Assembly (NCBI RefSeq): GCF_018143015.1
Contig: NC_054755.1
Coordinates: 15,408,778-15,472,777, forward strand
Direction of reading: 5' to 3'
From: Lytechinus variegatus
Taxonomy: Eukaryota; Echinodermata; Echinoidea; Temnopleuroida; Toxopneustidae
DNA: 64,000 bases
Shown here: one piece after another, positions 1 through 25,525 of the stretch
How the letters are laid out: each line of letters opens with the position of its first letter
Numbering within the stretch: the stretch's first letter is position 1
Notes under the pieces: model-generated
Told to the model about the DNA's origin: nothing
Seen by the model: only the letters and a program-made list of their open reading frames with translations
Databases searched by the model: none
Translations under genes and position numbers: made by a program

Positions 1-3000
1 GTCATTTTCAGACATTGAAGATGTATACCAGCGATATGCGTACGTTGAAGAGGAAGAGGTAAGTTTTTTTTTTTTTTTATTCTGATGGGTTCTGATGACT
101 GCATGGCTGTCCGTCTCAATACCGGTACCGTACCGGTACTGGTACGCATGGTACGGGCGGGAGGGTCTGTGGATCGGACGATTGCTACTACTGGCTTAGT
201 CAAGTGTGATGTAACCTCACAAGAGTAACAGCTCCGTGATAATAAACGTGTAAAATTTATGCATTTGTGGCTGGGCCATGAGAATGATATAGGTCGTCAT
301 CGAAATGTCATATTGAAAAAAAACATTCCGTAGCCTAGGTTAGGTCTAAGAAGTAGGATTTAATCAGATCTAGCCTTGGCTAATAGTATAAATAATACCG
401 GTACCCTAGTCCCTATCTATATTGCCATGGCACTGCCACTAGTGTAGTGACTATGGCCACTAGATCAACTCGGCATAATTTGGCACTAGGGATATTCAAC
501 CTACCGTTAGTGAGGATAGATAGCGATTGCTAAATTAGATCTAGATCTACATGTATGTCAGCCTCTGGCTTTGATTAATTCCCTGTTTGGTCTCATCTCT
601 ATGGTCTAGTCCATAGTCAGATGGGACAGGGGCAGATTGAGAGACCAGGTCATCTTTCATCGCTAGGTTGAATACTAGTGCCGACAGATTGAATACTAGT
701 GCCAAAAATCATCGCCATATAATTAGATCTCCCAGCGCACACAGTCGACTCGTTGAAGAAAAAAATGACAGAAAAAGAATACCAGCATTAGCTCTTTGAA
801 ATGAGATGGGTCTGAAATTTTTTTGGGGGGCCACTTACATTGACGAGTGGATACCATGCACGACCGGAAAAAAACGTAAAAAGGATGTCTTTTCCAAGAC
901 GGGCACGTTCCGTACATAATGTGAAAAGGGTGTCAAAAACACAAAAATAATGGAAAAAGTGTATCTATTTCGGTAGTTACAAGTTTAGGGTCAAATTTGT
1001 GGGGATGATAAAACAAAATGAAAATGTTTTATAAGGATGTCATTTTTGCCCCAACACTACGTGTTTAGAGTCCGATTTGCGAAAGGTGTGGAAGCTTGGG
1101 CCGTATTAAACCAAATGGTGTGTTAGCTGTAAAGGTAAAACCGACGACCGACGGAGCTGTGACATAACAATAAAATATCAAAAACCTTGGACTTGGACCT
1201 TTGATCCAATTTCATTTGAATCGTTCAATAACCATTTCGTCCAATATCCTTATTTAGTCCAATGTCCATTTGGTCGAACTTGATTCACACTTGCTGCAAC
1301 TACCCCATTAACGTTTTTATACCAAGTGAGAATTGGACCAAATGGATGTTGGAGAAACTGTCAATTGGATCAAGTGGGTACCTGTACTGGCTATTGGACA
1401 AAATATCCATTGAACAAAGTGGCATATAGGCGAAATGGCTCTTGGACGAAGTTGCTCTCTTAGACCAACTGGTTAAAGAGTGTGCCTACTATTCAACAAA
1501 AATGATATTTGACCAAAAGGCATTAGACTACATGATCAATTGACAAAATGGCGTAAGATGTAGAGGCGACTACCACCCCCCCCCCCCCCCTCCACTCAAA
1601 GACAGATAAATACTTCCCCTGCCGAATCAAAGTTTCATTCTCAATAAAAAAAAATACTCATGGGGTTAACAGCAATGATGTCGGTGAGAAACATAATGTG
1701 ATGAAATTAATTCTTTCATTTAATGTCATTACCGTTACAACACAGCGACTGATGCTTCGAAACAGTCATTATTTTACTATTATTCTTTGTTTTGGGGGAA
1801 GGGGAAGGCCTCAAACCTGATACCATAATTATTGATATTATGTCACAAAGCTGGCACATCCTCCACAATTTGGTACTAGTATCATAAAAAGCCTTCAGGC
1901 ATAGGTGCACTATCAGCACTTTTTGCAGTTACCAAATTGTGCCGTGCAATAGTTACATAACGTTTGTGTAAATGGCATATTTTGGTAATTTACCAAAATG
2001 TGTTGTAACATTCTTATCCTCAATTAAAACACCCATCATCACCTGATGGATGTTATGCAGGGAGATGATTGGTTTAATACTAGTATTTGATAAAACAATA
2101 ATTTTTTGAGGGTGGGAGGAATGGTGGGGGGGACTAGCTACTTGGTCACATCAAAATTAGTATCCTACGCATAATGCTGCCCACGATAGGTTATATACAT
2201 TGTATTATATAAACCAATGCAGTATGCTGAAAACATTTCAAGCCCCTAGAAACACCATACAAAATCTTTAGTCTACAACCGTGGGTACTTTAAAGTTGTT
2301 TGTTCGTGAAGAGTGACTTTAAGAATGACTGGTTATCCATGATTATCATTGACCACAAGAAAGGATTTGAAAGGATCCCCAGTGGTTCTTAAATTCACTC
2401 TTTATGACTTCTGAATTCTGCAATTTCTATAGAATTTGTGCAGGAATTGTTAGGTTTTGATTCACGGACAAGTCCGCCCCAACCAAAAGTTGATTAATTG
2501 AATTCAGTAAATGAAGAGAAAAATTCAACTCACATAACACTGAAAATTTCATCAGAATTAGACGTTAAAGAAAAGAAACAACATTATAGAGTTTGACTTA
2601 AATGTGCACAACAGATATGCACATCCTTGTCAAGATCCAAATGAGAGGACTAAAGACATCTATATTTACATGTATTTTGTACTTCATTATTGCCTAGGTG
2701 TCATATGAAGAAAGTTTGTATTGCTCCCTGAACATGTGAAACAACACTTTCTGTTCTAGTCAAATTGGTCATTATTGTCTAATCTTAAAAAATTGAACTT
2801 TTGAATAATTCAAATGATAAAATCCCAAAGAAATAGTGAGGGACATCACCAACTCTCATTTGCATATCACTTAGTTGTGCATATAAGTGTTTTTTTTTAT
2901 ATAAATAAGTGGAACTTCACATTGTCATAACTTATTTCATATCAAATTTCAAAGAAAATTTCAGCATTATGCTTGTTTCATTTGTTCCTGTTGATTCAAA

Positions 3001-6000
3001 TCAATATTTTGCTGGGGTAGAATTGACCAATTTGAAGGGGGGGGGGGATTTTTGGTCAAGCAATACCGCGTAAACCATTGTATTTCAATGCCTGTTTTGG
3101 CAAAGATTATCTATGTATATATATAGCTGATGTGTAATCACATCTTTGGTTTGTCGTTTTACAGCTCAGTGATATATCAGACCCAGCCGAATCACATGAA
3201 AATATAGGAGAGGAAGGAGGTACCCACAGACTGCAAGCAGGTAGGCGAGTAAGGAGGGACAAAGAACAAGGCCATGGAGAAAGCAGCGAAGGTCATGTTG
3301 GAGAAGGTACTGGTAAATCATCCAGAGGTAGTCAAGGAGGCAGAGGAAAAGGAAGACCCAGAGAAGGAGGCAGCAAAGGATGGGTAGGAAAAAGAGTAAG
3401 CATTGTAACAGGCACTGGCAGAGGAAGAGGCACAGGAACCAGTAAAGGACAGGTTGGAAGAGAATCCATAGGCAGAGGAAGAGGTGCAGGAACCAGCAAA
3501 GAAGGACAGGTTGGTAGAGAATCCATGGGCAGAGGAAGAGGTGCAGGAAATAGCAAAGGACAGGTTGGAACAGAATCCATGGCCAGAGGAAGAGGTGCAG
3601 GAACCAGCAAAGAAGGACAGGTTGGAACAGAATCCATGGGCAGAGGAAGAGGTGCAGGAAATAGCAAAGGACAGGTTGGAACAGAATCCATGGCCAGAGG
3701 AAGAGGTGCAGGAACCAGCAAAGAAGGACAGGTTGGAACAGAATCCATGGGCAGAGGAAGAGGTGCAGGAACCAGCAAAGAACATATTGGAGGAGGAAAC
3801 AGAGGGATGAGAGGAAGGAGAGGCAGAGTGTCTCAAGTTGGGCGTAGAGGCAGAGGTTCTAGAACTGGACAAGGACTTGGAGGAATGGGTAGTGCCTATG
3901 CAGAAGATAGTGTAGAAGGAGGCAGCAGCAACCAAGGAGATGGTGGAGAAGGCCCCATTGAACGTGAAGGCAGAGGACAGGGCAGTGGCCGAGGACGAGG
4001 CAGTGGCCGTGGACGAGGCAGAGGTCGACGTGGAGGAGGAGGACATGATGCCGAGGTTGCTCGAATTGAAGGTCTGCGTCAAGATCGTCGTGAGAGATTG
4101 AAGGTTTGTTACACACCGTAATTCGACATGTATAGTAGTTCTATACACCTCAGTTCTCTTTTTTTTTGTAAAATGAAATGGGTCATAATAATTCATAACT
4201 CCAAAAAGGAGTCATCAATCCTTACTTGTTGCTTCTCCAAGATATTGCAGATTGAAGTGGAAAGTTGTGAAAAGAAGCCCCAAAAGGGTAAAAACATGTT
4301 TTTGCAGGGAAAGTAAGGGGGGGGGAACATTTCAGTTTATTTTCATTTGGTCTAATGCCAGTTTTTCCAATCATGTGTTTGTTTTTTATATCCCCCCAAA
4401 TATGTCAGTTAGGGGGAGAAAAAAAATATACATATGTATGTATATACTTATATATTTATAAATATATAGTTATGCGTCAGTGTCATAATGTAGAAACAAA
4501 AGAGGACTTAATAGAAACGCCGTGAGACATAATCTTCTGCATCTGTCTTTATTTATAGATATAGATGCAGACCCTCAATAAGAGCAATTAAAGTATTCCT
4601 GGACAGGAATTTTGATAAAAACAGTTTTTACCTAGTCTGTGTAAGCAATGATGTTGATATTCATTAAAGGACAAGTCCACCCCAACAAAAACTTGATTTG
4701 AGAATATAAGAAAATTTTAGCAAGCATTAACACTGAAAATTTCATCAAAATCGGATGTAAAATAAGAAAGTTATTGCATTTTAAAGTTTCGCTTCATTTC
4801 ACAAAACAGTTATATGCACATCTCGGTCGGAGTGCAAATGAAGAACTAATGACATCACTCACTACTTCTTTCGTATTTTAGTTTATGAAATATTTTAATT
4901 TTCTTGTCATTGTCATGTGAAATGAAGTTTCATTCCTTCCTAAACACAGGCAATTTCATTATTTTAACATTACATGCTTCAGGCAAGGAGGTTCTTATCG
5001 TCAAATTTGTAAAAATTGAAGTAGTGCATAATTCAAACAATAAAAAACAAAAGAAAGAATGAGTGAGTGACATCATCAACTCTCTCATGTGGATGTAACT
5101 GGTTAGTTCATATTTTGATAAAAATAAGCAAAACTTTGAAATGTCATAACTTCCTTATTTTACATCCGATTTTGATGAAATTTCCAGCATTGTGCTTGTC
5201 TGGTTTTTCTCCATTAATTCTAATCAGATTTTTTCTGAGGTGGACTTAACCTTAAAGAATGATTTCATTTTTTTCATATTTTTCTTCAAATTCTAAGGAC
5301 AGAGCATGTGCTTTAGAGACCACTTGAGCTTATAAAATCAATTTTGGCTTAGATACCGTCCCCTTTTGCTATCCATTTTCAACATGTCTTACATGTCCTA
5401 ACCAATTTCTTAGTTCTCCTGCCTAGACTTTCACTCTTTTACAAATATAAAAAAAACATCTAGGCCCATACAAACTTGACATGATACTTGCATAAGTGAA
5501 TTTTCAGTGATGGATGTACTGGTTGAAAATATTTATTTTTTCAAATGAAAAAAAAAATATTCAATTGGGGTCATGCAGACTTATACCACATTAATTTCCC
5601 TTTCATTCTGCTTTTTTTAGGTGAAAGTAAGAGATATGACGAGGGAACAATTGGAGGACCTTGTCATAAGGCAAGTGGAGAGGGAGCCAGGGCTTATCAT
5701 AGATTTAATGAACCAGGGCCAGGCAACACCCCCATCCCCAGGTGAAACACAACGAGACATCCCATCATGGTGTGTTTGCAACAATTGCACAGTGAAGCCT
5801 ACAGATCGGGAGAATGTGTGTTGCGGATACACACCTAATGAGTGCCTCACAAGACATGGTGTAAGTCAAGTTCACTTGATGGAGAATCATATTAGGATGG
5901 GAATGTTTTAAGCAAACAAAACCAAAATAAATTCATGTCCTGCACAAGGGATTTGAAAGACCACAATTCCTCAAAATTGTATATGCAAGTATTCTCAGTT

Positions 6001-7123
6001 GTTAAACCAAATGCACATTTTGAGATGTACATAGTACACAAATAATGAAGATTTATGAGTGCAATGGGCAGAATACTTTAGGTGAAAGATGAAATGATCC
6101 ATTCAACGAGGCGAAGCCGAATTGAGTGGTTCATTCATTTCATCTTCACCATATGAAGTGTTCTGTCTATTGCACGAATGAAAAGAACATTCATTATTTG
6201 GTTTATATGACACCTAAAATAGATTTTTTTTTCATGTTACTTATGACTTTTGATGCAAAATGTGCAAAATAAGGTTATGCTGTGGGAGCTCGGTCTGTTG
6301 ACTATCACATAAACACTTATGCATGGGTGGCTCGGTGGCGTGCAATGGACAAACTTGTATGGATCCAAAATTGCACGGTTGATGACGTCATTGTAAAATG
6401 GGCTGAATGATTGATATTGAACAACCAATCAAGTGACAAGGAATATCTTGGTGTCATATAATTGCTTTTATCCCACTATGAATCAAACATCCTTTTCTTA
6501 GTCCTTGTGTGACTTTGCCCAACATCCAACAAAACCTTGGTGTTTTTTTCTCTTCTTTTACACAATTTAAATTCTTTCTTACATTTGTATCATATCAAGA
6601 TCTAAATTGTCTTTTTTTTGGAAAGATTATTCAAAAATTTGTTAGCATGATGTAATGATTTTCAATAGCATAACTCATGGCTGAAAATTAGATTTACACC
6701 TTCTGTATTACATTCAAGATAAGTGCTTTATATACATATGTATAATGGTTATGTGGTGTGATTGTCCTTGTCTTTTTATAAGAATTTTTGTAACAAATAA
6801 AATACTAATTTTATAAAATATTATATTTCTTGTTATTTCTTTCTTTTCAGACCTTTGCTCTCATAATAGATGAGGCAAACCTGGCACTTCAGAGGGCAAT
6901 GTGGAACGATGCTTACAACCTTCTTGTGGCAGCTGAGGAACCAGGCCAGGCCAATAAATCCATGAGGCACTCGGCCTATAGGTCCGTAATTTTTTGGCAG
7001 CATGGGACATTGGGAAGGGGTAATAGAAGAGTTGTCCCCAGCTGCTGTTCGGACAAGATTCATGAGAGATACCCATCCCCTAATGATCAGTACACTGGAT
7101 TCATCCCAGGAAGATTTGTTTAG
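1..7123 (+). CDS. P2RX7_C-domain protein with RG-rich tandem repeats (5' end outside window)
   Basis: Four exons join in phase 0: 1-58 (partial; donor GTAAGT at 59), 3165-4103, 5621-5860 and 6851-7123 (stop TAG). About 502 residues are visible. The first piece is acidic. The second exon is Gly/Arg/Ser-rich with seven 18-19-residue repeats of the type GRGRGAGTSKEGQVGTESM, then an RG-rich run and a basic helix ending RRERLK. Exons 3-4 encode the cysteine-rich domain found at the P2X7 receptor C-terminus: MTREQLEDLVIRQ, WCVCNNC, ENVCCG, then RHSAYRSVIFWQHG, PSCC and YPSPNDQYTGFIP. In that family the Cys/His residues bind zinc. There is no P2X channel domain, so this is a stand-alone cytosolic or nuclear protein; its function is unknown. 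RG repeats often bind RNA or nucleic acid, which is inference here. It converges with the transposase-like gene. High confidence in the exons and the domain. Confidence 0.88.
476..707. mobile_element. Short inverted-repeat element (MITE-like) in intron 1
   Basis: The left arm TTGGCACTAG...ATTCAACCTA is matched in reverse near 662-707 (TAGGTTGAATACTAGTGCC), with the last motif doubled on the right. There is no coding capacity. Boundaries are approximate. Confidence 0.5.
1190..1560. repeat. Degenerate short-unit array in two opposite orientations
   Basis: Units close to TTGGACNAAATGGNNA, about 20-25 bp long, occur as reverse complements from about 1200 to 1290 and in forward orientation from about 1330 to 1550, around a non-repeated centre. 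The whole stretch could fold back on itself. It looks like the arm-repeat arrangement of a small foldback element. A C14 tract follows at 1577-1590. Confidence 0.5.
2465..3035. mobile_element. Foldback MITE, family A, copy 1
   Basis: The left end resembles GGACAAGTCCRCCCCAAC and the right end resembles its reverse complement (GGGGTRGAATTGACC). Internal halves are inverted copies: the AAAATTTCATCAGAATTAG type on the left and CATATCAAATTTCAAAG on the right. Same family as 4666-5255, 23888-24492, 49036-49610 and 59923-60411. Non-coding; lies in intron 1. Confidence 0.7.
3165..4103 (+). repeat. Coding minisatellite in the RG-rich exon, 111-bp higher-order unit
   Basis: Within the exon, 54-bp and 57-bp units alternate to form a 111-bp higher-order unit. 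Positions 3525-3635 and 3636-3746 look identical base for base, and a third partial copy starts at 3747. More diverged units lie upstream from about 3411. Units are multiples of 3, so copy number can change without frameshift. The purine-rich composition keeps other frames open, including a 292-codon minus-strand frame, which is not a gene. Confidence 0.85.
4666..5255. mobile_element. Foldback MITE, family A, copy 2
   Basis: Begins AAAGGACAAGTCCACCCCAA and ends with the inverse (GGTGGACTTAACCTT). The two halves are inverted copies that meet near 4960. Non-coding, in the intron between the RG-rich exon and the P2RX7_C exons. Confidence 0.75.
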
Positions 7124-9755
7124 CTTGGTCTTCCTCATCTTCCGTTCAACTTCTGTAGTTCAATAGAAACCTTTATTGATTAGTGTCTTAGGTTTTGTTT
7201 GTTTTCACACTAGCTAACTTTCCGAAATTTCATTCTCTTTTAAAGCTCTATTCAAACACAAGAAGTGAAATATTTCTATAATGTTATCAAAAGGCAAAGT
7301 ACACCTTAACACCGGGTCGGATTATAACAAAAATCAAACACAAAAAAAGTCAAGTAGAAATTACATCACTACGATTTATTCTGTTTGACAAGTTACATAC
7401 GCATCAGGGGTGATATAACATGGACCACTGACAACACACATCACTTTTTTTTTTTGCAACTACTTCAACTGTAGGTAACAAACAAAGTAATTTCTCATAG
7501 TGCCCAGTTTCCAGGCTGACCATTTCTTTCCACAAGATAAAAATGAGTTGTTTTATACATTATAAGGTGCATATGTTATATGTCATTTTCCATGGTATAT
7601 GTTTGATTCTTACGACATATTGATCAGATGAACCATATTCGAAGTAGCTTACTTAATTACATTGCCATGTCATTACATTATAGCAACTGACAAGATATAG
7701 ATACATTGTAACTGTAGATCAATGCAATTAAAGTTACATTCATTGATCGAACTTATTTTGACATGCAACCTTAGTTGAAAACGTACTCATACATTGTATA
7801 AGCATGAAAGTTGTAATGATAAAAGGTAACCATTTCTGATTGAGAGAAAACAGACAAACTGTAAAATGTATCAGTGAAAGGACTTATATGAATGTATATA
7901 CAATATGCAACTGAAGACCATTATTTTTTCATGTAGTTTTAATTCTAAACATTTATTTGTACCTTGATTATATGTATAAAGAATGCCATGATCATAAAAT
8001 CATGTCTTTTGAAAGAAAAAAATACAACTTCCTTTTGGCGATGTAGGCAAGTTACACCACAGGTGCCTCATATAAAAGCATGAACAAAATTATGTTCTTC
8101 AAATGGTTGAACGGTTTGGGTTCAGTGTAATACTGGCTTCTGCTTATATTTAAGATTTTGCAATGTCATGTAAAATAATCATAGGACATATACTGTACAG
8201 CTATTCTACAGAGGAACATTATTTTTTGGTCGTAGAATTTTTTCCTTCTCAAAATATTGATGGTGACGACAGGGACAACATAAAACTGACAATAACAGAA
8301 ATAAACAGGATTATATATCCAGCTTGTCACAAAATAAGAAAATATACTGCACTTTGAGCAACTGAAATACCCCCCTCAAATAAGTGCGACAAGATCAAAT
8401 TAATTTTCCAATAGATGTTTTGGAGTATATTTTCACAAGGAGTTGAGTGTGACACGCAATCTAATTGATATGCAGTAGTGCATGTCATCTTACATAACAT
8501 GACTTGACCATGTGATATTCTTAATAATGCATGCATTTGGAAATTTAAGTGCAACTCTAAATCTTACTTTTAAAAGATCTTTGTGAAACACCCCACTGGT
8601 CTACAAATTCCTTGGACTTTTGAAAATAAAAACTGTAATATTTACTTTTGCATGTTTGCTATATTTGATATGTTATTCTTCATTAAACCAAACCAAAGAT
8701 ATTTGTTGATCTTCCCCGATAAAACGTGTGGTTGCTGGTAATTTGCATATCATGGTTACAAGAAAAGGAAAGAGTTTAAAAGAAAATGTAGAGAAGGCAG
8801 AGGGGGATATTTACATCTTCATTGAGTGAAAAAAAGGTAATGTGTCGCAAGTTACAGCAGTTCTAAAGTTGATTTTGAGCAACTTGTGTGGACAATACTA
8901 ATTATTTTCTTCAATGAAATAGAGTACCCAAGTGATGTCACAAAAACCTTGGCTTTCATCGAATTCAATACCATATTTCGGTAGAGCATGGTAAAAAAAT
9001 TCCTATTAGCCGATTTGGTGGGAATCAGTCCATGGGGCTCGAAGATAAGACCTTATATCTAAAGGCTCCATGAACCATTTCCACCAACTTTGGCTTAGAG
9101 GGGTTTTTTAATCATGCTATACCAAAATGTGTCAAAAATGCTGACATGCAAAACAGGAAAATTGGTGACATGAGTCTTTGGTACTCTATGTATGTATGTA
9201 ATAATGGTATTGTTGTTCTTTGAAAAGTAGGATAACCTACAATACTGTGAAATGGGGGGGGGGGAGATAGGAGTATTATCTACATCAAATGAAAAATTTA
9301 AAGTGGGAATTACAAATGGTTGATTTCATTCAACCAAAGTTTGTGATAATAATATTAAAATTTTATTTTTTAATAAAAATAAAACGAAAACTACCACAAA
9401 AAGGGGGGGGGGGGAAAACCGTCTTCAATGCACAAAAGATTTCATTGCACAAAAGCAGAGTTCAAAATCAATCACCAATTTAATTTGTGCTGCTAGAACC
9501 TGGCTTGCAATGTTTCTTGCAACGACCTATTGCTATGGAACTTACAAACGGCCATCTTCTCAAAAACAATTTTGGTGATAATATTCTCCCTATTACTGAT
9601 AAGATAGGAAGATAAAACCAACAATACCTTGAAAAGTGCAAAGAATACTTGAACAATGTTTGCGGTTGATCACTCAGAACATCATTCATTATGAGAATGA
9701 TAGAAGACCCTGTGACCTTTGACCTCATTCGACCTTGCGACAGAAAAGTCTTTCA
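7124..9755. other. Convergent intergenic region, no gene seen
   Basis: AT-rich DNA between the stop of the P2RX7_C gene (7123) and the stop of the transposase-like gene (10740, minus strand). It probably includes both 3' UTRs. G9-10 tracts occur near 9254 and 9403. I found no exon with splice signals or a recognisable domain on either strand. Confidence 0.6.
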
Positions 9756-9920
9756 GGGGAGCGTTTCATCAATATTTTTGTCTGACAAGTTGTCAGATCT
9801 GACAACTTTCCTTGATAATGATTGGCTGAGATCGAGAGACACTGTTACCATAGTAACTGTCGGATAAAACAGTACTTGTCTGATAAAACGTCCGACAAGT
9901 CCTTTCATGAAACGCTCCCC
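9756..9920. mobile_element. 165-bp palindromic MITE
   Basis: Begins GGGGAGCGTTTCATCAA and ends with the near-perfect inverse TTTCATGAAACGCTCCCC. Inner arms share GTCTGACAAG-type sequence. Non-coding. Confidence 0.75.
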
Positions 9921-10739: not shown

Positions 10740-13700
10740 TTATACGGCAAATCTACTCCTCCTTCTCTCCAAAATTTCTTGAACATTGGGTAGAGGCATT
10801 GCTGTTTCAAGTCGTGGCCTTATACGGCGTGGATCAGTTTCCAGCATCTCGATAGGGGAGGAGAGTGGCAGTGGATCATTTGCGCGCATGATGAAGATTT
10901 CCTCCATCATTTCTCTCAGGTAGGGGTAGGTTTTTGCTTCTTTTACACCAACGGCTACATACTGCCTTGCATGCTTGGACCATCTGATTTGGTGCCTGTT
11001 AATTGGAAATATGAAATAAGGTAAATGTTCGAATACCTTCATACTAATAAAAGGAATATAAGGAGAGTTTACATGATAATAAGATGAGGAAGACAATGAG
11101 GAATAATTAAGTAGGGGAAGGCGGGTAAGTTGTGACACTTTTTGCCTTTTGCATGTTAGAATTGATATGATTAAAGCCAAAAAATTTCATCAAAATCGGA
11201 TAACAAACCCAGTGGGGGATATACCCTTAACACGTTTGGCTAGTCTTTAAAAAAAAAAGTTTTTTTTTTTTTGGGGGGGAAACACACCCTAAATACGTTG
11301 GACCCTGCGATTGACCGTTGACTAGTCTTTCAAAACCTCCCTTTTTTGGAAAAATGAGTGTTTTTGATACCCTTTACGAGTCCACGCGCGGACTGTCCAA
11401 AACTTAAAAAACACCCCTTTAAACACGTTTTTTGGTCACAAGTAAGTACAGCAATATTTAACTGCCCCCCCCCCCCCTCCTGAAAACAAATTATAAAGTT
11501 ATTGAAGTTTAAAGTTTAGCAATATTTTGTGAAAACAGTTGTCATAAATATTCATTAGGTGGGCTGATGATGTCACATCTCTTTCCGTTTTCTTATGTTA
11601 TTACATACAATCATATTTTTTTCATTATTTCATACTTGTGTGAATAATGTCTCCCTTACAAGAAAGTTGCAACAATAAATATCTAACCAGTTGTCAATCC
11701 AATTTTTCTAGTTCTTGGAGGTAAAAAATTAAATAAACCTAATTTCATAAAATAAATACAAACGAACAAGTGGGGATGTGACATCAGCCCACCTAATGAA
11801 TATTCATGATGACTATATTTTCACACAATATTGCTAAACTTTAAATTCAATATCTTTGTTATCCGATTTTGATGAAATTTTTAGCATTATGCTCAGTGAA
11901 ATCTACTCTATTTTTTAAGCAATAATTACTTTCAGCCTGGACCATCCCTTTAACTTTCTACTGCCACACTGAAAGTCAATTGTCACCTTTGAAAAAAGAG
12001 ATTTCAAGTGGCTCAATTTGCCCCATCTGAACGGTAAATTGAGCCACCTTTTGGCATAAGTTTAGCCACAAAAAAAATGTACAAAATGTATGGGGGAAGA
12101 ACCAGCATGTCAACTTTTCTTTAATCCTAAAATGGCCGGGGGATGGGGGAATGGGTTTGAATCAACTCCCTCCCCCCCTCAACATTTTCTGCGATCATTC
12201 TGCTGCGCAAACTTTTTTGACTGGGCCACTCGCAGAGTTTTTTCTTTTAAAGTCTCACAAATCTTTTGAGACCAAATTTACGACACCCGGGTACGCGATT
12301 CCGAAATTACGCAATATTTCGTAAGTGCATGTCAGACCAAAAATTGTTCAAAAATGTGGAAATCGATGCAAATTGAGTTTTCTCATCTTATTCATAAAGA
12401 TGTGATTATTTTTATGTTAAACAGCTGAAGAATGCTACAAAGAATATTTTTACCAAAAATTAGCATTCTAGGATCTTTACTTAATGAGAGCAAGTTTGAT
12501 TTATGTATAAATAAGCATTAATAATTCACATAAAATAAAATCTCATTATTTTGGAAAATTTTACCATACAGCCTTGTAGATTACATCACACACTAACATC
12601 GTCAGAGGGGGGGGGGGTTGAATCAACCCCCCCCCCATAGAACAGCCAAAAAAGCCCGGCCTAGTTAGGGTTAAAGTCTTTTAACTCGCTAATTCTCTAT
12701 AAATACCAACATTCTCTAAAAGGAAAACAACAGTCATGTAAATCTGCTATTTTCTGCCTCCATATTGCTGGCTTTTTAAAGATGTATTTTTCATGTACAT
12801 TACCATAAGTTTTACCATGGCCCACCTTGCCCCATGTTCGTTTGCTCAAATTAACCAAGTATAACTTAAAATTTCGCATCCACACATTTCTTATGCATCT
12901 ATCGTGTAAAAAACTACGACAAAAGTGAAGATCCACCTGGACAACAATGTTGTTCTTATGTCTTTCTTATATAGATGTATCCATGTAAAAACACTTATTT
13001 CACACCCTTTTCTACTTTTTTTTGCTGAAATTTGTATTTTTCCATGAAAAAATGTGTTGGGGTTAGGGGTTATGCAATGGGTCATCAATACATGACACCA
13101 CCACAATGTCTGACTCATTCATTATTGACCTGGTGTTGTGGCTCAACTTGCTCCTATGCTCAACTTACATCCACGTTCCCCTACATTTATATGCTCAAAA
13201 TGTACAATTACTTCCTATGACTATGACAGAGTAACTTTGTACTACCTTTTTTCGCCATTTGCATCCTTCTTGTAAGGTCTATCCTTGTGGGCTTGGTAAT
13301 CAATGACTGCCATAAAGTTTCGTGCCCGAAATGCACGATACCTGAAAGTGAAAATCGATCACATAAATATGTCACACTAACTGGTATACTTATGAGGTTC
13401 AATGCATTGGGCAATTGTAAAAACAAAAGAAACAAGATCATCTAGAGTGTAAAATATTAGGAAGGGGCCAAACTTTCTGATATTTAATTGTAAATGTACA
13501 TACAATGAAACAAGAGATATTTACATGTACTAAACAAATCCAATCTTTCCTAATTTATTTTTTTGCTATTCACCTGTAAGTAAAGAAAAAATCTTATTGT
13601 TAATGTTATGACCCAAACTGAAACTTTTTTATTTGTTCTTCTAAATTGAAAAATGAACAATTTAGATACAATGAAAATTATATACAAAAATGTCTACTTA

Positions 13701-16700
13701 CCCAAATGAATATCGCTTTGAAGCATACATAAGAATGTGATTGTTCAGGCTTTCAATGGTGGAAGTGTGCCTGGGAGGACATAAATACCAAAAAACATGT
13801 AGGAAATATTTATTTAACAAGAGAGTCGATAAGCAAGTATATAATGCGCCTGCCTGTAACAAGCAAAATGGATTTATCGGTCAAGCAAGAAAAGTAGAAG
13901 GTGGCGACTTTACCTTTGACTGTCTTAACTTCAAAATCAATATAATTCCTTGGATCTATGCTAGCATCATACACACCAAATTTTATGAGCCTATAGCTTA
14001 AGTTAAACTAAAGTCATCGTGTTAACAGGGACATCAGAAGGGTAAGATATAAACATGTCAGTGTGAATTTGACCTTCAAATCAAAGATTTCCTGGGATCC
14101 ACACAAGTATCATACACACCAAAGTATATGAGCGTAGATTAAGTTGAACTGAAGTCATCGCGTTTACAAGGAAAAGTTAACGATCAGATAGATGGACGGA
14201 CACCGATCGTGATACCATTATACGTATAATGAAAAGCACATACAATCAAAATCCAAATGTAAGTATGGAGACCATCTTTGGTATATTTTCAGCACATGCA
14301 ATGAATAAGAATAGAATTATAAATCCATGCAGTTACATGTACTTGAATTGTCCGTTTTGTTCTTACAACAGTAACCTTTGATGTTAGGGGAAGTCCATTT
14401 CCATAATGCAAATAAATGAACCAAGAAAACAGTTCGCTATCCAAGAACAAAGTATGTCAATGTATATGATAATGCCTTTGATCTTCGATTTCATGATGAA
14501 AAGCATTTGCCAAAAGGGTGTTCCATCCCATGAGTGGTAAGATAAAATAAAAACAGTGTCCCTCTTATATGCATATAAGATTCAAGTTGGGGTATTCAGT
14601 CATGACCAGAATTAGTCATTTTCTTTTCAACACAAATTCTAATCAGATCATTGCTGTTCCCATTTGCACAAATGGAAAAGTTGAGCCTTGAAATAGAAAG
14701 TTATTGTGAATTGAAGATACTTTCTGGTAATGATTTCTGTAACCTTTGAACCCACAAGATCTAAAAATAAGCAGACCATTACTCCTATATATACATATAT
14801 ACTTCAACCAAGTTTGAAGTTGATCAGTCAAAGATAATTGAATTATTCTTAGAATTTAAATGTGACATAATGCCTCTGGCAATCGCCTTCAGCAACCAGA
14901 ACAGTTCGCAGACTTATCACGAATGAGGAAACGTACACTGTCACCAATTGCTCTTCTGAAGGCCACTTGATAAGCTGTCAGCATAGAAAAGTTGTTCTCA
15001 TTTTGAAAGCTTCTATATAAACAGTCACAAACCAGTCAACCAATCAAAAGTATTTCACTGAAATTGTCAGCATTGACTATTATTCATCATCGCTGACCAC
15101 TTTAATGAGAAAACAACAAATCCTACCATCAAGAGTATGAAAGTTCCAGAAATACTGTAAGCTATGGAAATTGTGGAAATTAAATAACTCACCTGAATGT
15201 CACATATCGCTCAATGTTTGACAAAAACCGCTTCTCATAGCATAACTCTACCAATGCACGATGTGGAGGAGATCCTGCTTGCAGCCATTCCTCCCTCTCA
15301 GGTAACTCCTCATGACTGCAGGTCACTGTGCCTTCACCCAAGCCAGAAACCCACTCATGCTTGTCAGTTACATGATGGGTCAGTCCTCTCCATTTTGCCT
15401 GAAGAAAGAAAACAAAATAAATTTAGACTTGAAAAGAAAAATTTCACTGACCTGCACCTTCTGAACTTCCACCTGAACTTCAACGGTGGGGGGGGGGGGT
15501 GTAATCTCTGATACTCCAATAATACATGGGCTATACACAATAGGCCAAGGGAGTATAAAAATGCTTTAGCCTAAACTGGAAACATAGTGAATGGGCTCAA
15601 GCCTAAATGGTTATTAGACCACAAGTGTAAATGAGAAGTAGACATATTGATTTTAAAGTAACTGGGATTAGATATGCGGGATAGGAGAGCAAATGCAATG
15701 TATAAAAAGCAGGTGTAGACCAATTAGCATTTTTCTAAATGAGGGGGGGAACAATACTTTCTTTTCACAAGTTGGAACATCAAACTTACAAGAAATGCTC
15801 GACTGCTCCTGCCACATGTCTCGGCGCACCACCAAAAGTGAAACACGACATGCCTCACCCAATACAATAGTGCACATGTTGAAACCTTGCCTGCTGCCTG
15901 CAAATGAAGAAAAATGTTGTAGAATTCCCTTAATAACAGGAACAAACACAATTGTTAGTGTTAACTTACACTCAAGTTTTCAATTCATCACAAAAACATC
16001 ATGTATGAAAAAGTCATTATAGAAAAAAAATAAAAAATTTATAAATCAATTGAAATTCCATGTTTGTTCTCTCTGCTTACCTTGGTTAGCTTCTTTCCAA
16101 GATTTTTCCCAGCATGCCATACATCCCCGGAATGACGAATGGTGGGCCTTTTCTCTCCTGTTTTTAGGATTAAAAAAAATTATTAGTTATATAATTTTGA
16201 ATGGAAATCAGTTGCCTAATCTTCATTTATCAAAGAACTAAATTAGTAGCCTAAGTTGTAGTAACAAGGCTGGACATATACGATGGACAAAAATGAAGGG
16301 GTACTGTACAAGGAAATCGTGTCCAACTATGTGCATCTTTATATGAAGGTCACAACATTATTGTAACTGCATATTCAACAAATATTACCATACATTGCAT
16401 CATGTTAGTGCTTTCTCAAAGTTGAAACATAAAGTTTTAATGTCTAGGGCCCCGTAACACAAAGGTTAGCGATTAATCATAAATAAAGTAGCCTATCAGA
16501 TTTTTGCTTAACAGACTGACCAGGAACCAATCAGACTATCCATTGCAAATCTATTTTGGGTCCCTAGATCAATCATATGTCTTTTAGTTAATTGCAAATT
16601 AGTGATTGATTGCCAATTTTCTCCTTGAAACAAGAATTTTAATCTGATTTGCTACAGCTAACATTGATCTATCAGTTGTAAAATTGGAACATAATATTTG

Positions 16701-19700
16701 CAATTGATCGCAAATATTTTCTTGCAACACCACCTTCGGCAATCAAATTAGCGATTAATCGCTAACCAAGTTTAACAATTAATCATGACAAGCTTTAGCT
16801 TTCAAATTCCTATTCCAGATTTTACTAAAATAGAAAAAAATATGAAGATGGTCTAACTTATGTAGTAAAAGTAAACTTACAAGTTCTATATGGACATTGT
16901 TTCAATGGATTTGAAATATGCAATGATGAAAAAAACTTAATTTATAACTCATTCATTATGAGACAGTCAAGAAAGCCAAAATGTGCCACTTAATTTGTAG
17001 GATCAAATTAAAAAAAGAGTGTGGTAAAATGGGTAGTCATTATGACGCTACAACAGAATTCTCTCACGTCTGTCCATACATACTCATATAGCGGGTAATT
17101 GAAGGATGAGCATCAGTCACCAGTTCATCAACCTGCACCCCTTCTTGTTCAAGTTTGTTAAGACCCCGCTTCAATCCCTCCAACTCCATAAGTGGGCTCT
17201 TCCCCCCAGTTTCTCTCTTTTCAACCACCTGCACGTCAACTACGTCTTTCGTGTCATGTGCCATGAGAATGTACGTCAGGTATCGCGCACAAAATCCTGG
17301 TGAATCATTGCGACCATCACCTACCCACAAAACACAATTTTGAAAGCATTACAAATGTGAAGTAAATTTTCATTATTTCTCATTTCATTTCATTTCATAC
17401 AGAGATGTATTCAGATACAGTTTACATGTACATGTTTACAAGAGGATTGAAAGAGACTGACTATTGAAGAATCTTGGGAAAAGTACACCTGTTAGTTGTT
17501 CTTTCTGCTTAGGTTCAAAATCTTTCAAAATTTTCAGTACTGACCTATCAATCGAAAGCTGATAATATGCAAAAGAAGAGCATTCCATTACATTTCAAGA
17601 GGGGGAAAAAATGTGGCCGACTGACTGACCAAAGTAAACTGCAACCTTATGCAAGATGTTTGGTTGGGTTTTATCATATTGACACCTGCTATAGATTAAG
17701 CCCGAGTATGACCTGATGTACATGGAGATGACGATCCTGATTTGGTCAAATTTGTACTGTTCAAACATATTAGACATGACTGTCAGAATATAATGCACAC
17801 CTAAATGGCAATAATTATTTTTAAAATTCTATGCTATTCTATTTCTAAATATTTGTTATTTGTCTGTCCCTACAAGAAAAAAAAACCTTGTTCAGAACTT
17901 CAAACAATAGAAACACAACTACAGATTTTCTGAAAATATGAAACAAAACGAATCAAGTAAAATAAAAAAGTCACCTTTCATAAATGACACAATTGAAATA
18001 ATTATTTATTACTTACCACAAAGAACTATCCTTCCCTCCTTGTGTTTGGACAACACAGTTGCCTGCACTTCCTCCCATTTCTTCTCGATGGTCGGGGCAA
18101 TGTACTTACGCTGGTGTGCATAGAAAGTTGAACTAGATATCATGTTCAGGGACATGAATCTGGCTAACAGGCTCACCTTATTGAAATTATTGCCTGTCAT
18201 GACAATAGCCGAGGCCAGCTTCATGTCTCCCACATGAGACCTTTGTAGGGTTTCCTGCCCACACCAGCTTGTAACATGGCCATTCGAGCAAACCTGTCAT
18301 AAATGAAAGATGAAGTAAATTAAATGTTTAACACAGAAAATCGAGTAGATTTGACAAAAATAATTAATACAGCTTGAATGACACATACTTACCCATTTCA
18401 CATGCACAGATGTGCCAGATGGTGTCAATTCGACATCTAAGTCCTCTCTGCATTTGCACGATGACCTTACTTCTTTACATAGGCTTTTGAGTCTGCTCAA
18501 GGAGACAATACAGAAGTTTGTTTCTGCAGCCTGTGTTGGTGCGACTTTGGCATGGAGGCCACTCCTTGTGAATGCCTCGCATGGTTCGTCGAGCTGTTGG
18601 GGAGGTAGCTCCCCAATGACCTCCTCCTCCGCTCCAATAACATCAATGTCTTTAGGGAGAGGTCTGAAAGAAATACAATATGTTGCAATCTGATTAATTT
18701 CTTTTAACCCTATCTACATGTAGGTGGGTGGGGAGTTTCCTTGGAGCCCCCCCCCCCTCAACAGTTCGCACACTATTCTTGCCGCGCAAAATTTTTGGAC
18801 CGTGCCGCTCACTAGCTTTCTTAATTCAAGTCTTACACAAGTTTTCATACAAACTTTGCAACATCTGGGTATGCAATTCCAATATTACACAACGTTTTGT
18901 AAGTGCAGACCAAAAATTGCTCAAAAACATGATTTTGTGTACAAAGTCAATGCAAATTGTGTTTTCAACCAAGAAGCATGTATGATTATTTTCAGATTTG
19001 CTGATCTAAATAGTTTAGTTTCAGGTCAATTATGGTTTCAAAAGAGTCAACAACAAATTTCAAAAGAATTGAATAATGAAAAACAAAGAAATGCAAAAGA
19101 AATTACACAAATAAATATTATACATAAAAAGTTGATCTGACATCACAATATTTTCGGCATACACTTGCTAAGAACACCATGAAGTGTTTCTTCACCATAA
19201 TTCGATTGGAACATTTGGAGCTTCATTTATTGATTCAGAGGAAAAAGTATGATTATGCAAACTAATTATGCATTATCACTAGCAATTTGCATTAATAAAT
19301 CACTCTACAATTTGGTAGACAATGTCAAGACAATTAGCATCATCACTAGCAATTAGCATTAATAAGTTACTCTACAATTTGATAGATACTGTGCAAGACA
19401 ACCTGCATGCCAATTTTCGGCACGGTCAAAGGCCAAAATTTCAAGGGGAGGGGGCCTAGGAAGCAACCCCCCCCCCCCCCCCGCCCCAGCCATATGAACT
19501 CCACATGCGACATCTGAAGATACCATATCTGACATGAATGTATACATACCAGTACATGTACATCATGTAGAATTACAGTTTATTAAACACACCTTATGTT
19601 TCAACCAACTGAAATATTTTTGAGCAAATTGATACTGGTACTTGATTAGATGCAACCATGTCAGCTAAGGGCAGGTCATTTACATGTATTTTTAATCTTT

Positions 19701-22700
19701 TTAGAACAAGGACACTTCTCTAGAGTGAACATTTTCAAATTATTTTTCACACTATTCATGAAATAGTTTTCCATGTTGATCTGCCATTAGAAAAGCAAAA
19801 TTCTTGTAGCAAACTACCTTGTACAGAAAATAGCAAACTAAACTCGACTTACCCTTCATGAAAGGTTATTTCAGGTTGAAATTCGCTTTCAGGTTCAAAG
19901 TCACTGTCACCTTCATACGCAGTCTCATATTCATCCTCCTCCTCCTCCTCATCGAACCACTCTGATGTGGCCACATGTGAATAACTGATGTTGACACTGT
20001 TGTGAAAATTTAATTTAATTAACAGACCAGGTAGCAGGAAAATATCACTTGTAGTAAATACTGTCAATGGATTTGCTTAGGTTATTAGAGGCAGAATATT
20101 GCATGATTAACAAGGTACATGTATTTCCCCGTTATATATGTTTCAGGAGACATTTCATTCTATAGAGACATAATGACAATCAAATTGCAAAAAAAAAATT
20201 AAAATAAAAAATGTACACTGATTGCACCACGACACAGCCATATATTGCCATCATGAAGAACTGCATGAAAATTTAAAAACAATGCTCTTCTTTCCTTCTT
20301 GGATATAAGTAACCGAACATATGAATCAACGATGGTAAAACTTACTCAAATCCCTGATTGACCAGTGTTTGCTCTTCAAGCTCTACTGTTGCACATTCCT
20401 CCTGCAGCGAATGAATCCCAGACACAGTTGGACTGGATCTGAATAAGTCAAAAAATATTCATGCGCGCATGATGAAAGGTTACAAGGTTTCACGTTTATT
20501 TTCCAAACAACTATTTATGTTTTAAGATACAAAATATATTCATGTCCTTGTACTGACCTACACAACACTTGAGCATGTGTCCCAACATCAGATCAGGTCA
20601 TGACAATCCTATCTATCATAAATACACACACATGACCCAAACCAGTGTGAAGCAAAACATTTATGTAGCGGACAGAAACAGGAAGGACAGACGTTCAGGG
20701 AATATGATGCCTTCTATCCAGTAACACTACAGGTACTGCGGAAAGGGCACAAAAATGAATGCTTACCCATTTTCAGAGGGAGGACTGACAGCTGTGGAAC
20801 TGTGTGAAAAGAAAAATATAAATCTTTAAAAGTATGACAGAGATTTTACAGACTAATCCTCAACTTCATTATACTACATGTATGTTCTTCATACAAAGAA
20901 GAAATATTCCATCTGCTGATACATGTACATGTATGTGGTGTACTATTTCTGTATAGCAGATCACCCCCCCCCCCCCCCCGGAAAAAAATTGAATTAATGA
21001 AAATCAGCTGACTTCTCGACGATACAATCAATGTCAAAATTGATGCTTTCACCAATGCCACACCCAGACTTTGTGCTTCCTAAAAATATTGAAAAGTACT
21101 CTAAACAATGGACGATAATGAACTATTAAAGAATATTAAACAATAAGATAAGCATTCGACTATCTCACACATACAACTTTTATATACCTGTGACCTTTAA
21201 TCCAAGAAATTACTTACCGGTAACCATTTTTCAAGAGACATCAGTAAAGTAACAAGTAACTTTTAAGTCTTAATTCATATATGACCGATTATTCAAGTTT
21301 GGAAATTATGTCACTTGTTAGATATTTAGTTCTGAAGTCGGGTGACAGAATACATGTATTTTATTTAATTAAGTTCATTTTTCGGGGCTCGTCAGACACT
21401 GTAGGGTTATGTCTACATTTAACATTTAGCATGAAGGTTTGCATGTATACTCTTTTACGAAAATTTGCATGTATACTCTTTTACGAAAATTTTTGAAAAA
21501 CCCTACACAGCAACGGGAAACTAATTACAAAAGTTACAGGAATTTTGTGAAAGAGCAAATTCGAAAACGTAAACGTGAATATTTTAACTCCAAATTTAAC
21601 AATGTACGTGGAAAGATAAAAGACACTTGGAATGTTATCAACGAATTCCTTAATAAACCAAAGCCGCGTACACAATGTGAACAGATGGTGAGCAATGGTC
21701 GTGAAGTAGAGAATAAGCAATCCATTGTAGACATGAATATTTCAGCTCTGTTGGATGTAATTTTATCAATAATGCCCCTAGTAGTAACAAAAACTTTTGT
21801 GATTTTTTTAGGTAACAAAAACAGCCATACAATGTTCTTTAAACCAATAACAGGAAAAGAGATTTTAGATATTGTGTCCACTTTTAAAGAAAATAAAAGC
21901 CCAGGTCAAGATGCTATTACTGTTAAAGTTTTTAAACGATCAATTAATTAATCTAGTAATATCTTTAATAGGTCTTTGGAAGAGGGCGTATTCCCAAATT
22001 GTGTATTTGGCCAAAATTCATAAATGTATCATTATTCCTGCTTTTACTATTAAATTAAACTTAATTAATTTTGCCTTATGATCAGAATTAAGTCTGGAAC
22101 GATTTCCATCGAAAAAACAAGGAAATACATAACAAATACAAAAAACACAATAAATACATAAGAAATAGATCTTGGTACCAGAATTTTTTTCATTCAAAAT
22201 TGTTAGGAATGCTATAAAGAATATTTTCACCCAAAAATAGCATTCTACGAGCTTTATTTACAGAATCAGAACAAAAAGCATGATTTCATGAAAAATTAGC
22301 ATAATTCATTTAATAAAAAACCTATGAATTCAGTGAAATCAAAATGCATACATTACGTCATTCTCTACCATCATGCAAATTTTCGTGGTGATAGCAAAAT
22401 CCGAGGCTGATATCTTATGGGGGGGGGGCCATTATGGCCCCCTCCCCGGAATGACAAGAATCAAAATACCCCTGGTCTCATTAATGAAAATCTTGTTCTC
22501 TGTGAAATTATCTAATAACAAACCGCTCCAAGAATCACTGATATTCATTCTGCAGATAGTATATATATGAACTGATTCAAAAAGGTATTTGGGAATAGTG
22601 ATCCTGCTTGTACTTCAATAATGCCTACTTCTAAATAATTCTCAAATACAAAAATGTACCTGTGTAGATGAATGTCTTTCATTCGGTAAAGTGGTGTGGA

Positions 22701-25525
22701 TGCTGTAACCGGCAACCTATTGAAATAACAAGTAAAAAGGTAAAAAGGTTGAATATAGAACATAATGAAGACAAAATCTTTATTATCTACGGTATTATCC
22801 AATATCCATAAATTCAATCATAATTGTTGTATACCTTTATAAGTCATGCCCACTTATACAAAACTTACACAAAAAGTGACAATTTTATTTTCACAAAAAG
22901 ATGAATGCACATCACACATTGTTTCTAATTGCACCCATGCACACTTCATTGTCAGGTGTGATAAATCACTGAGATGAAATTAAAGTAAAACAAAATTATC
23001 AATTTTATGTGTTCCATCAACTTCCATGCCTATTATTGACTCTCGTGTATGTGCACTAGCCTGTTTTTATGAGTGGTGCTTCATTTGATAACGTGATTAC
23101 CTAAACTTGACAAATGTATCACATGCAATTGTTCTCAAATATTTGCAAATGTTGATACTGTAACAAATATTGTGATGAATACTCACATCTCCATATCTCT
23201 AGTTCCATGGGCAGATTCAGCAGATTTAACTGGCGTTTGCGTGAGAAACCTGAAAAAAAATTCTATATTTAATTTTTGAAAACATGAACCATACATGTAA
23301 AGCTTGATAACAAAAGAGGCTATATCCACTTTCAACCCAAACTGATTATTGTTTATAAATGCATCCATAGGTATTGGCACACTGGCAGATTGGGGGGGGG
23401 GGCATTTCCAGCCTCTGCCCCCTCCCACTGAGAGTCATACATGTAGTCAATGTTACATATTGTCGTTTATACCCATATTCAGAACCCCTCTCCCATCCCC
23501 CCCCCTTTAATATTCAGTCACTGCCAATCTAGAGTAAACGAAACCTGTGAATTTTGCAAGAGATTGTTCACTGCTCTTGCACCAATCAAAGGATTTTTAC
23601 CTTGAAACACCAATGTGATATACAACTGAATAGGCAATTAGATAATCATCTACCGGTAATTCTATTCCCATTCCTTCCCAATGGTTTTTGTATGAGAAGC
23701 TCACATGCCTCAGCAATAGTGCTGAATTTTACTATTGCAAGCCCAAGCCCAGGAAAAAAAACATTTTCTTACTCTCACATGTCTCATCTGTTCTTTAATT
23801 TCTACTTATCTGTATGTTATTCAATTTCAAATTGTATTTTTTACTTACATTGTACAATTTGGGTAAGGTTTTTGTGGCCAAATAATAAAAGGACAAGTCC
23901 ACCCCAACAAAAACTTGATTTGAATGAAAATAGAAAAATTCAACAAGCATAACACTGATAATGTTATCAAAATGGAATGTACAATAAGAAAGTTATGGCA
24001 TTTTAAAGTTCCACTTCATTTCACAAAACAATTGTATGCACTTCTTGGTCAGTATGCAAATGAGGAACTGATGACATCACTCACTCACTATTTATTTTGT
24101 ATTTTATTAGTTGAAATAAGAAATATTTTTATTTTCTCCTCATTGTCATGTGAAATGAAGTTTCATTCCACCCTGAACACATGGAATTCATTTTTTAAAC
24201 ATTTTCTTCTTCAAGGCAAGGAGGCCCTAATCGTTAAATTCGTAAAAATTGAAATATTGTATAATTCAAACAATAAAAAACAAAAGTAGTGAGTGACATC
24301 ATCGACTCTCTCATGTGGATGTAACTGGCTCGTTCTTGAAACTAATTTGTTAAAAATAAGTGAAAATTTGAAATGTCATAACTTTCTTATTTTACATCCA
24401 ATTATGAGGAAATTTTCAGCAGTGGCAGTGCTTGTGTGATTTTTCTCTATAGATTCAAATCAACATTTTTCTGAGGTGGACTTGACCTTTACCAACAAGA
24501 ACAAATAATAAAAGGGTAATTCCAAAAATATAATCAACCTTTTTGTATGTCCATCCACTTGTGAATGGAAGTGCCCCCCCCCCCCCCGCCCCGGGCTAAG
24601 GCTACGTCTCTTCTGCTCTTTTCCCCAATAGTATCTATCGATATCAAGGTATTTTACTTTAATTTGGAAGCCTTTCGTGAAACAGGTTTAGTAAGAATGG
24701 AAGTAGAACTAATTCGGCCAAATCGTGGTTTAGGAAACCACTCATAGATTTGTGTACGCGCATTTGTGTACAAAGTGAATGGAGGTGGAAATAGGGAACC
24801 GTGCGTGCGACTGAATAAAGCGCTGCTGTGATGAAGGAACGGTGGTTACCTATATCACGATAATGCCACTAATTCCATGGTTGGTGGATAAAGATATAAC
24901 TAACTTGTCCAGGTGTTAAGAAACGGGCCCCAAAGAGCTCCCTAGCCTGGCATGCTAGGCCTAGCCAGGCCCTAGGTTAGGATTCATCTTGCACAGTAAA
25001 TGTTGATATGAACTGAAGTTAGCAACCAAATCATGCGAATATAGTTTCGCATGCGGCATACTGCCAATTTGTTCGCCAAATGTTCGCATGATTTGGTTGC
25101 TAACTTCAGTTCATATCAACATTACTTTTCTGTGCATGCACGGCCTAACCCAGAGCTCGCGAGCGGGAGCTACCTGGGACTGGTTAGGTGAATTCAAGCT
25201 ATCCGCGAACAAGTATTGGTGATGAGGTGTGCTGGTAATCGGTAGTTGTGAAACTGCATTAGCGCCGAAAATTCGATAAATATGTGAACAAAAGGTCTCA
25301 TTAAATTTTTTTTTTCATGAACGTTACTCACATTGCCAACAATGATTCCGCCAGCTCATCGCTAGTGTCGAAGCCTCCCCTTTCCTTGGCTTCATTCCAC
25401 TGAAGGAATGTTTTCTCCATCAAAACTACATGCTTCCTCTTTGATCTTTGTTCTCTTTCTCTTTCTTCGTACCGAGCTCTCGCCCTTCTCTGCGCTTCCT
25501 TACTCCTTCCCCTCGATTCTTCCAT
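10740..25525 (-). CDS. DDE-transposase-like protein, complete, 15 exons, 726 aa
   Basis: Exons on the minus strand, 5' to 3': 25332-25525, 23187-23249, 22660-22716, 20767-20799, 20346-20438, 19853-19996, 18393-18663, 18017-18293, 17084-17320, 16081-16157, 15790-15897, 15193-15398, 13702-13770, 13246-13341, 10740-10995. All introns are GT-AG and all phases agree, giving 2181 coding bases. A stop codon sits directly upstream of the start ATG. Residues 1-64 are basic with a short helical motif (HVVLMEKTFLQWNEAKERGG); about 65-285 are acidic and probably disordered. Then come a Cys/His zinc-type segment (CKC near 250; VCSNGHVTSWC at 286) and a DDE core: D379 in CGDGRNDSPG, D447 in VTDAH, D468-V-W-H471 matching the [C/D](2)H signature of MuDR, hAT and Kolobok-type transposases, CxxxC/HxxxxH (CAETC, HHVTDKH), and E593 in HTSTIESLNNHI. 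The fold recalls Kolobok or ISL3-like enzymes; the superfamily was not assigned by a search. An intact triad plus 14 introns suggests a domesticated gene. Confidence 0.85.
11160..11950. mobile_element. Foldback repeat in the last intron of the transposase-like gene
   Basis: AAATTTCATCAAAATCGGAT near 11190 is matched by its inverse ATCCGATTTTGATGAAATTT near 11860. The inner TTTAGCAATATTTTGTGAAA near 11515 pairs with its inverse near 11820, and ATTCATTAGGTGGGCTGATG near 11550 with its inverse near 11780. Non-coding; related in style, not sequence, to family A. Confidence 0.65.
12125..12650. repeat. Dispersed repeat, family D, copy 1
   Basis: Shares long stretches with 18745-19490, for example ACCAAAAATTG followed by CAAAAA and TGCAAATTG, and with about 22160-22440. 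Copies start and end beside C- or G-rich homopolymer runs. No TIRs or coding seen; family unknown. Confidence 0.5.
13880..14240. repeat. Diverged direct repeat in an intron of the transposase-like gene
   Basis: Two diverged tandem copies of about 125-150 bp share CATACACACCAAA, TATGAGC and GAAGTCATCG. The stretch ends GGACGGACACCGATCGTGAT followed by the self-complementary TTATACGTATAA. Non-coding; could be the end of an unidentified transposon. Confidence 0.4.
16447..16775. mobile_element. Nested MITEs in an intron of the transposase-like gene
   Basis: The outer element begins GGGCCCCGTAACACAAAGG and resembles 26567-26723. Inside it, about 16540-16735 matches the separate element at 61239-61454 (shared ATCAATCATATGTCTT and TTTCTTGCAACACC). 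This appears to be one MITE inserted in another. Boundaries approximate. Confidence 0.55.
18745..19490. repeat. Dispersed repeat, family D, copy 2
   Basis: Starts beside a C-rich tract (about 18750) and ends beside a C16-type tract near 19470. It shares GCGCAAAATTTTTGGACC-like and TTACACAACGTTTTGTAAGT-like stretches with 12125-12650. Within it, AATTAGCATTAATAA-type sequence is repeated near 19290 and 19350. The open frames crossing it are chance. Confidence 0.5.
21475..22025 (+). mobile_element. LINE ORF2 fragment (endonuclease-RT linker), broken
   Basis: Translation gives the linker and start of the reverse transcriptase of a non-LTR retrotransposon: YFNSKFNNVRGKIKDTWNVI, then FKPITGKEILDIV and KENKSPGQDAI, which match the conserved region before RT motif 1. 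The frame breaks near 21945; the following NRSLEEGVFPN motif is in another frame. No catalytic YADD part is present. An old fragment within an intron of the transposase-like gene. Confidence 0.75.
22165..22450. repeat. Dispersed repeat, family D, partial copy 3
   Basis: GAATGCTATAAAGAATATTTTCACC and the following TAGCATTCTA resemble 12430-12475. Ends at a G9 and CCCCCTCCCC pair near 22420-22447. Non-coding. Confidence 0.4.
23888..24492. mobile_element. Foldback MITE, family A, copy 3
   Basis: Begins AAAGGACAAGTCCACCCCAA and ends with the inverse (GAGGTGGACTTGACCTTT). Inverted halves meet near 24190. Lies in intron 1 of the transposase-like gene. Confidence 0.75.
24999..25133. repeat. 135-bp palindrome with long near-perfect arms in intron 1 of the transposase-like gene
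   Basis: The left arm from 24999 (AATGTTGATATGAACTGAAG...) has its reverse complement on the right ending at 25133, with arms of about 41 bp and no mismatch seen. Outer flanks also pair loosely (GCACAGTAAA against the inverse of TTTTCTGTGC). It is probably a young MITE; transcribed, it would form a strong hairpin. Confidence 0.8.

Follow-up and report, generated by a model that had tools for sequence, protein, structure and literature searches.

The sea urchin window analysed here, a stretch of 64,000 nucleotides (C16:15408778-15472777), holds the larger part of a DNA transposon that is very probably a Kolobok element of the Kol0 type, carrying genes for a transposase and for the partner protein KolX and thus autonomous by gene content. 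We found its boundaries, the TTAA sequences that flank them, terminal inverted repeats (TIRs), intact transposase exons, similar copies elsewhere and a recurrent pairing of the two genes across the searched genome (870 Mb, 33 contigs). That such a gene pair belongs to a mobile element, and that the P2X7 tail domain came from one, had already been reported, and the element in the window is a well-preserved and unusually large example.

A convergent KolX and transposase gene pair

An earlier note, made from the letters of the window alone, had described a P2RX7_C gene with RG repeats and a multi-exon DDE-transposase gene converging on it. The first of these is real (PF20478; 3165-7123, +): its three exons (Table 1) join into a single open frame that ends in a stop codon, stops are present in the two alternative frames, and the domain profile matches. 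When the last two exons were spliced and used as a query, solved P2X7 chains were matched at 7.8e-16 over the ballast domain. Matches to P2X receptors were confined, genome-wide, to C2, a contig with no KolX match; therefore, the ballast domain here was not seen within a P2X gene. No 5' exon or start was found when the upstream lists of open reading frames (ORFs) were inspected by eye, and, with the start exon not located, the completeness of KolX in the window copy is unproven.

The transposase gene, on the opposite strand, is intact, with 11 exons bounded by GT..AG borders leading from an ATG at 25525 to a stop at 10740 and encoding 644 amino acids in our model. Its stop lies 3,616 bases from that of KolX at 7123, in line with the 3.6 kb given earlier. 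The predicted protein had been one of 726 amino acids with D379, D447 and E593; the three residues stand, as D297, D365 and E511, the length was not reproduced, and since the offset is a constant 82 residues, the difference in length sits in the N-terminal exons. The full window model passes the Pfam cut-off for Mutator-like transposases (4.3e-7; 29.7 vs 26.5 bits), as does the transposase of a second family, on C3 (1.5e-6). Four further cores from this genome share 33-37% identity with that of the window, and in all five of the aligned cores the catalytic D, D, DxxH and E and the H-H-C-H residues are unchanged. By our own residue assignment, the H2CH motif corresponds to core positions H150/H155/C168/H170, invariant in 5/5.

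Table 1. Features of the Kolobok element in the window (positions are those of the window)
Feature	Position	Strand	Basis or remark
Kolobok (Kol0-type) element, right 26 kb	1-26033		homology break, TTAA + TIR
KolX RG-rich exon	3165-4103	+	splices in-frame to ballast exons; open in one frame only
RG-coding tandem repeat, 57/111-bp units	3417-3791	+	inside RG-rich exon
KolX exon, part of P2RX7_C (ballast) domain	5621-5860	+	PF20478 positions 60-110, 2.1e-7
KolX last exon, ballast end + stop	6851-7123	+	PF20478 positions 135-191, 1.8e-14
Transposase exon 11 (stop)	10740-10995	-	exon model
Transposase exon 10	13246-13341	-	exon model
Transposase exon 9: E511, last catalytic residue	13702-13770	-	core alignment
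Transposase exon 8: H2CH zinc-finger-like motif	15193-15398	-	core alignment
Transposase exon 7	15790-15897	-	exon model
Transposase exon 6: DxxH (DVWH, 386-389)	16081-16157	-	core alignment
Transposase exon 5: D297 (GDGRNDSPG) + D365 (TDAH), first/second catalytic D	17084-17320	-	core alignment
Transposase exon 4	18017-18293	-	exon model
Transposase exon 3	18393-18663	-	exon model
Transposase exon 2 (acidic)	19853-19996	-	exon model
Transposase exon 1 (ATG)	25332-25525	-	exon model
Transposase-side terminus, imperfect TIR, inwards CGGTATAGTGTATGATTGG	26015-26033	-	1 mismatch to family end
TTAA target-site duplication	26034-26037		partner TTAA at C16:15401616-15401619, outside window

Boundaries of the window element and its relatives

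The window copy measures 33,191 bp (33.2 kb; C16:15401620-15434810), of which the left 7.2 kb lie outside the window, and the interval treated in the earlier note (1-25525) is entirely internal to it. The shared terminal inverted repeats that the note had proposed to look for outside both genes were found in this one genome; they are imperfect, with TTAA on both sides. At the KolX-side end (C16:15401616, TTAA followed by the repeat), 14 of 19 bases match the transposase-side end of the family and 13 of 19 match the window's own. Scanning the genome with the transposase-side family end gave 32 exact matches and 58 at up to three mismatches, some of the three-mismatch matches being the opposite (KolX-side) end, and a reversed-pattern control gave four. 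The window's own transposase-side end has C as its first base, where most listed copies have A, which is a point against the Kolobok reading.

Only one of the 32 exact ends, that of a sister copy on C4, has a DDE or KolX match within 35 kb. The other 31 look like non-autonomous derivatives (e.g., C1:5132808-5140344 and C7:25041412-25048917), and almost every copy of this family would thus be non-autonomous or carry cargo that escapes detection. Inward-facing pairs of both end types of this family also occur 17-31 kb apart (C1:962381-992897, C4:1022772-1041997 and C1:48067314-48084244), with no listed transposase or KolX match between the ends of these three pairs.

The C4 sister (56.36-56.39 Mb) lies at an unrelated site and aligns with the window element in three long blocks, from at least 2.5 kb upstream of the window to position 26037, and the homology stops at TTAA, which is present at the sister's surviving end. 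The two copies differ by 218 substitutions in 27,775 aligned bases (0.79%). Over the 1,935 coding bases of the transposase, eight differences separate them, with the frame unbroken in both; dN is 0.0040 and dS 0.0048, values that are uninformative with so few changes. The RG exon varies in length among copies, with 939 bases in the window and 1003 in the sister, where its frame is broken, with nine in-frame stops as read; the sister's KolX is probably dead, or its RG exon may be spliced otherwise. The KolX-side end of the sister is interrupted by a 2.84-kb high-copy repeat (C4:56391683-56394522), which has more than 30 copies at 93-98% identity among the matches listed. A third, partial copy of the window element is present on C2.

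Some smaller differences and neighbours of these copies were also recorded. Positions 24716-24953 of the window are unaligned between shared blocks, and in their place the sister carries about 0.9 kb of different sequence. A stretch of transposase intron 1 (21309-21612) is absent from the sister; it is overlapped by an ORF (21430-21951, +) that by eye resembles a fragment of a non-LTR reverse transcriptase. Beside the sister, C4:54.1-57.0 Mb is a many-copy amplified region, with listed matches nearly all on C4.

The convergent gene pair is also carried by a second family, of 17.7 kb, on C3, C4 and C8, the alignments of whose three copies end together. All three copies have TTAA at both ends, their flanks are unrelated, and their substitution divergence is 0.14-0.21%. 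Each contains a 561-codon frame with the transposase core and, on the opposite strand, a 165-codon ballast frame. The TIR of this family is perfect over 17 bp (measured on the C3 copy), and a genome scan for TTAA plus this TIR (up to two mismatches) returned the six ends of these three copies as exact matches and one further site with two mismatches, with none in the control. This TIR was sought in the window and is absent there because the window element is of a different family, which has ends of its own. In the C3 copy, an ORF dense in cysteines (C3:1788124-1788537, -), CxC-like by eye, lies near the KolX-side end and is possibly a KolX 5' exon; a Pfam scan of this ORF gave no match.

Recurrence of the gene pair across the genome

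To ask how often the two genes lie together was the check suggested in the earlier note, and adjacency within 30 kb is well beyond chance in the one genome searched. The PF20478 profile gave 27 exon matches, forming 20 KolX loci. Clustering within 12 kb of 94 core matches, together with 4 of 101 matches obtained with a divergent relative, gave 44 DDE loci. A DDE locus was found within 30 kb of 14 of the 20 KolX loci, against about 0.06 expected if placement is presumed to be uniform, and the gene order is convergent at every one of the 14. These pairs are not independent: by our reading of the identities, they fall into about eight sequence groups, and the KolX loci at 360 kb and 381 kb of C1 have one DDE locus in common. 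Because the pair recurs at many loci and its exons are conserved in other copies in the genome, the observation exceeds chance. Seen from the other gene, a KolX locus lies within 30 kb of 13 of the 44 DDE loci; the 31 that have none are a point against the Kolobok reading. Tandem transposase fragments, matching the query from about residue 186 on, occur five times at 0.9-1.3-kb spacing at C1:54567579-54572870.

Assignment to Kolobok, Kol0 type

By their published description, Kolobok elements are flanked by duplicated TTAA, have RR/YY ends and encode a DDE transposase with C/DxxH in which, in nearly all lineages, a zinc finger precedes the final E; the Kol0 lineage is described as encoding a second protein, KolX (Kojima & Bao 2022, PMC9587614). 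We assigned the window element by these described features and by the KolX partner, not by a tree. A 4-bp TTAA target-site duplication is present at both ends of the window copy and of the C3, C4 and C8 copies and at one end of the copy at C4:56.4 Mb. The family ends read AGG..., as 5'-RR/YY-3' termini; the window's transposase-side end begins with CG and its other end with AG. The transposase has DDE with DxxH between the second D and the E (D297, D365, D386xxH389, E511), an H2CH zinc finger lies between DxxH and E in 5/5 cores, and the partner carries the P2X7 ballast domain, as judged by both PF20478 and the P2X7 chains.

Xenopus Kolobok transposases usually carry a THAP domain as well (PMC6004289). 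None was found in the full window transposase model, nor in the 10 kb to either side of the element; because THAP is described as usual, its absence was not taken to exclude Kolobok. Of the 13 KolX+DDE pairs in the same genome, 5 do have a THAP exon nearby, at distances of 2.9-7.2 kb, a count for which 150 of 187 candidates were scored and neighbours were picked by eye from 122 matches.

The closest described system is Kol0 of the Kolobok-1_XT type (PMC9587614), with which the window element shares a transposase and a KolX ballast protein, TTAA and 5'-RR...YY-3' ends, and from which it differs in being very long (33.2 kb) and heavily introned, in its RG-repeat KolX exon and in having no THAP found; the hosts given for Kol0 in that paper include vertebrates, annelids, cnidarians and sponges. 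The XKol elements of Xenopus (PMC6004289) resemble it in TTAA, ends starting with AG, a DDE + H2CH transposase and recent copies. Unlike the window element, they are tabulated at 6.8-13.9 kb, and their transposase, which has THAP, was described on the basis of long ORFs; the term KolX is absent from the main text of that paper. piggyBac elements have the TTAA target in common with the window element and are set apart, by description, by the 5'-RR ends of Kolobok and by the DxxH and H2CH of the window transposase, features described for Kolobok.

Alternative explanations

The earlier note had left a choice between a single large mobile element that carries both genes and a co-inherited domesticated pair. 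The former is borne out by the termini with TTAA, the copies elsewhere, the pairing at 14 of 20 loci and the convergence of all 14. Domestication, in which both genes would now serve the host and be kept together by selection or linkage, would fit the open frames of the window transposase and of the three known KolX exons, and the six KolX loci that lie more than 30 kb from any detected DDE locus could be domesticated. At the window locus, however, the domesticated pair is not supported, given a sister copy at an unrelated site on another chromosome, with 0.79% divergence, TTAA at its surviving end and a frame-broken RG exon. The ends of an element are present, and further copies, including the partial one on C2, mean that the pair is not single copy; we regard the domestication of this pair as very unlikely.

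Marginally less probable again is a separate superfamily, i.e., a two-gene TTAA transposon whose transposase is Kolobok-like and falls outside Kolobok. The window transposase without THAP and the 33-37% identity to the four other cores in the genome speak for such a group, but TTAA, the RR/YY ends, DxxH, H2CH and KolX all fit the published description of Kol0, and a THAP exon lies near 5 of 13 KolX+DDE pairs in this very genome. The least probable account, to which we give almost no weight, is that an ordinary P2RX7_C gene happens to stand beside an unrelated transposon and that the two were duplicated jointly. A duplication common to the window copy and the C4 copy is conceivable, but their homology breaks at TTAA, with an end found exactly at 32 places, and the convergent order is kept in about eight sequence groups, in which the identity of the cores to that of the window falls to 33-37% (five aligned). 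A Kolobok element of the Kol0 type is the reading that we retain.

As a member of this superfamily, the window element would move by cut and paste and may be currently active: judged from its family, the transposase would bind the AGG... terminal inverted repeats, excise the element and insert it at TTAA. KolX, here with an RG-rich tail, could, at a likelihood somewhat below even, act as a cofactor of the transposase. In that role, its RG-rich tail and zinc ballast may touch nucleic acid or nucleotides.

The ballast domain of P2X7 and its relatives

The P2X7 ballast holds a guanine-nucleotide site (Rump et al. 2020, PMC7016195). KolX has been described as having the P2X7 ballast fold, P2X7 as the product of a fusion between a P2X4-like gene and KolX, and Nanor as probably a domesticated KolX (Kojima & Bao 2022, PMC9587614). 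The earlier note's suggestion that the pair bears on the origin of the P2X7 tail domain is upheld by the 7.8e-16 match to P2X7 chains and had already been published (PMC9587614). The P2X7 ballast, Nanor and the invertebrate ZCD proteins (PMC7016195) have PF20478 with conserved cysteines in common with KolX; they are a host receptor or stand-alone proteins, whereas the domain in the window sits in a transposon gene. P2X7 is a receptor of inflammation and immunity, and our data are an independent whole-genome confirmation of the published claim that its tail derives from a transposon protein. With KolX seen here in young elements with known ends, what it does in transposition can be tested, and so can the original function of the ballast domain in P2X7.

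Ballast (ZCD) genes have been reported as linked to two markers from sponge to sea urchin, which was read as ancestral synteny (Rump et al. 2020, Fig. 6, PMC7016195). Words beginning with "transpos" or "mobile" are absent from the main text of that paper, and section 16 of PMC9587614 does not take up ZCD synteny. It may be, at a likelihood just short of even, that this synteny is the gene content of Kol0 transposons (KolX and a transposase, sometimes with a THAP exon) and not host synteny. If this were true, the conserved ZCD linkage would mark transposons, and the majority of stand-alone ballast proteins in invertebrates would be encoded by such elements; the exceptions would be a small number of solitary, domesticated loci (at most 6 of 20 here).

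The KolX loci with no DDE locus detected within 30 kb, each a candidate relic or domesticated KolX gene, lie at C1:26195294, C10:25277117, C11:27538428, C14:22183422-22184036, C17:25726368-25729130 and C8:33471438. The KolX exon at C1:26195294 has a THAP exon about 430 bp away on the same strand, and at C14:22183422-22184036, three KolX exon matches 234 bases apart form a tandem repetition of the ballast end.
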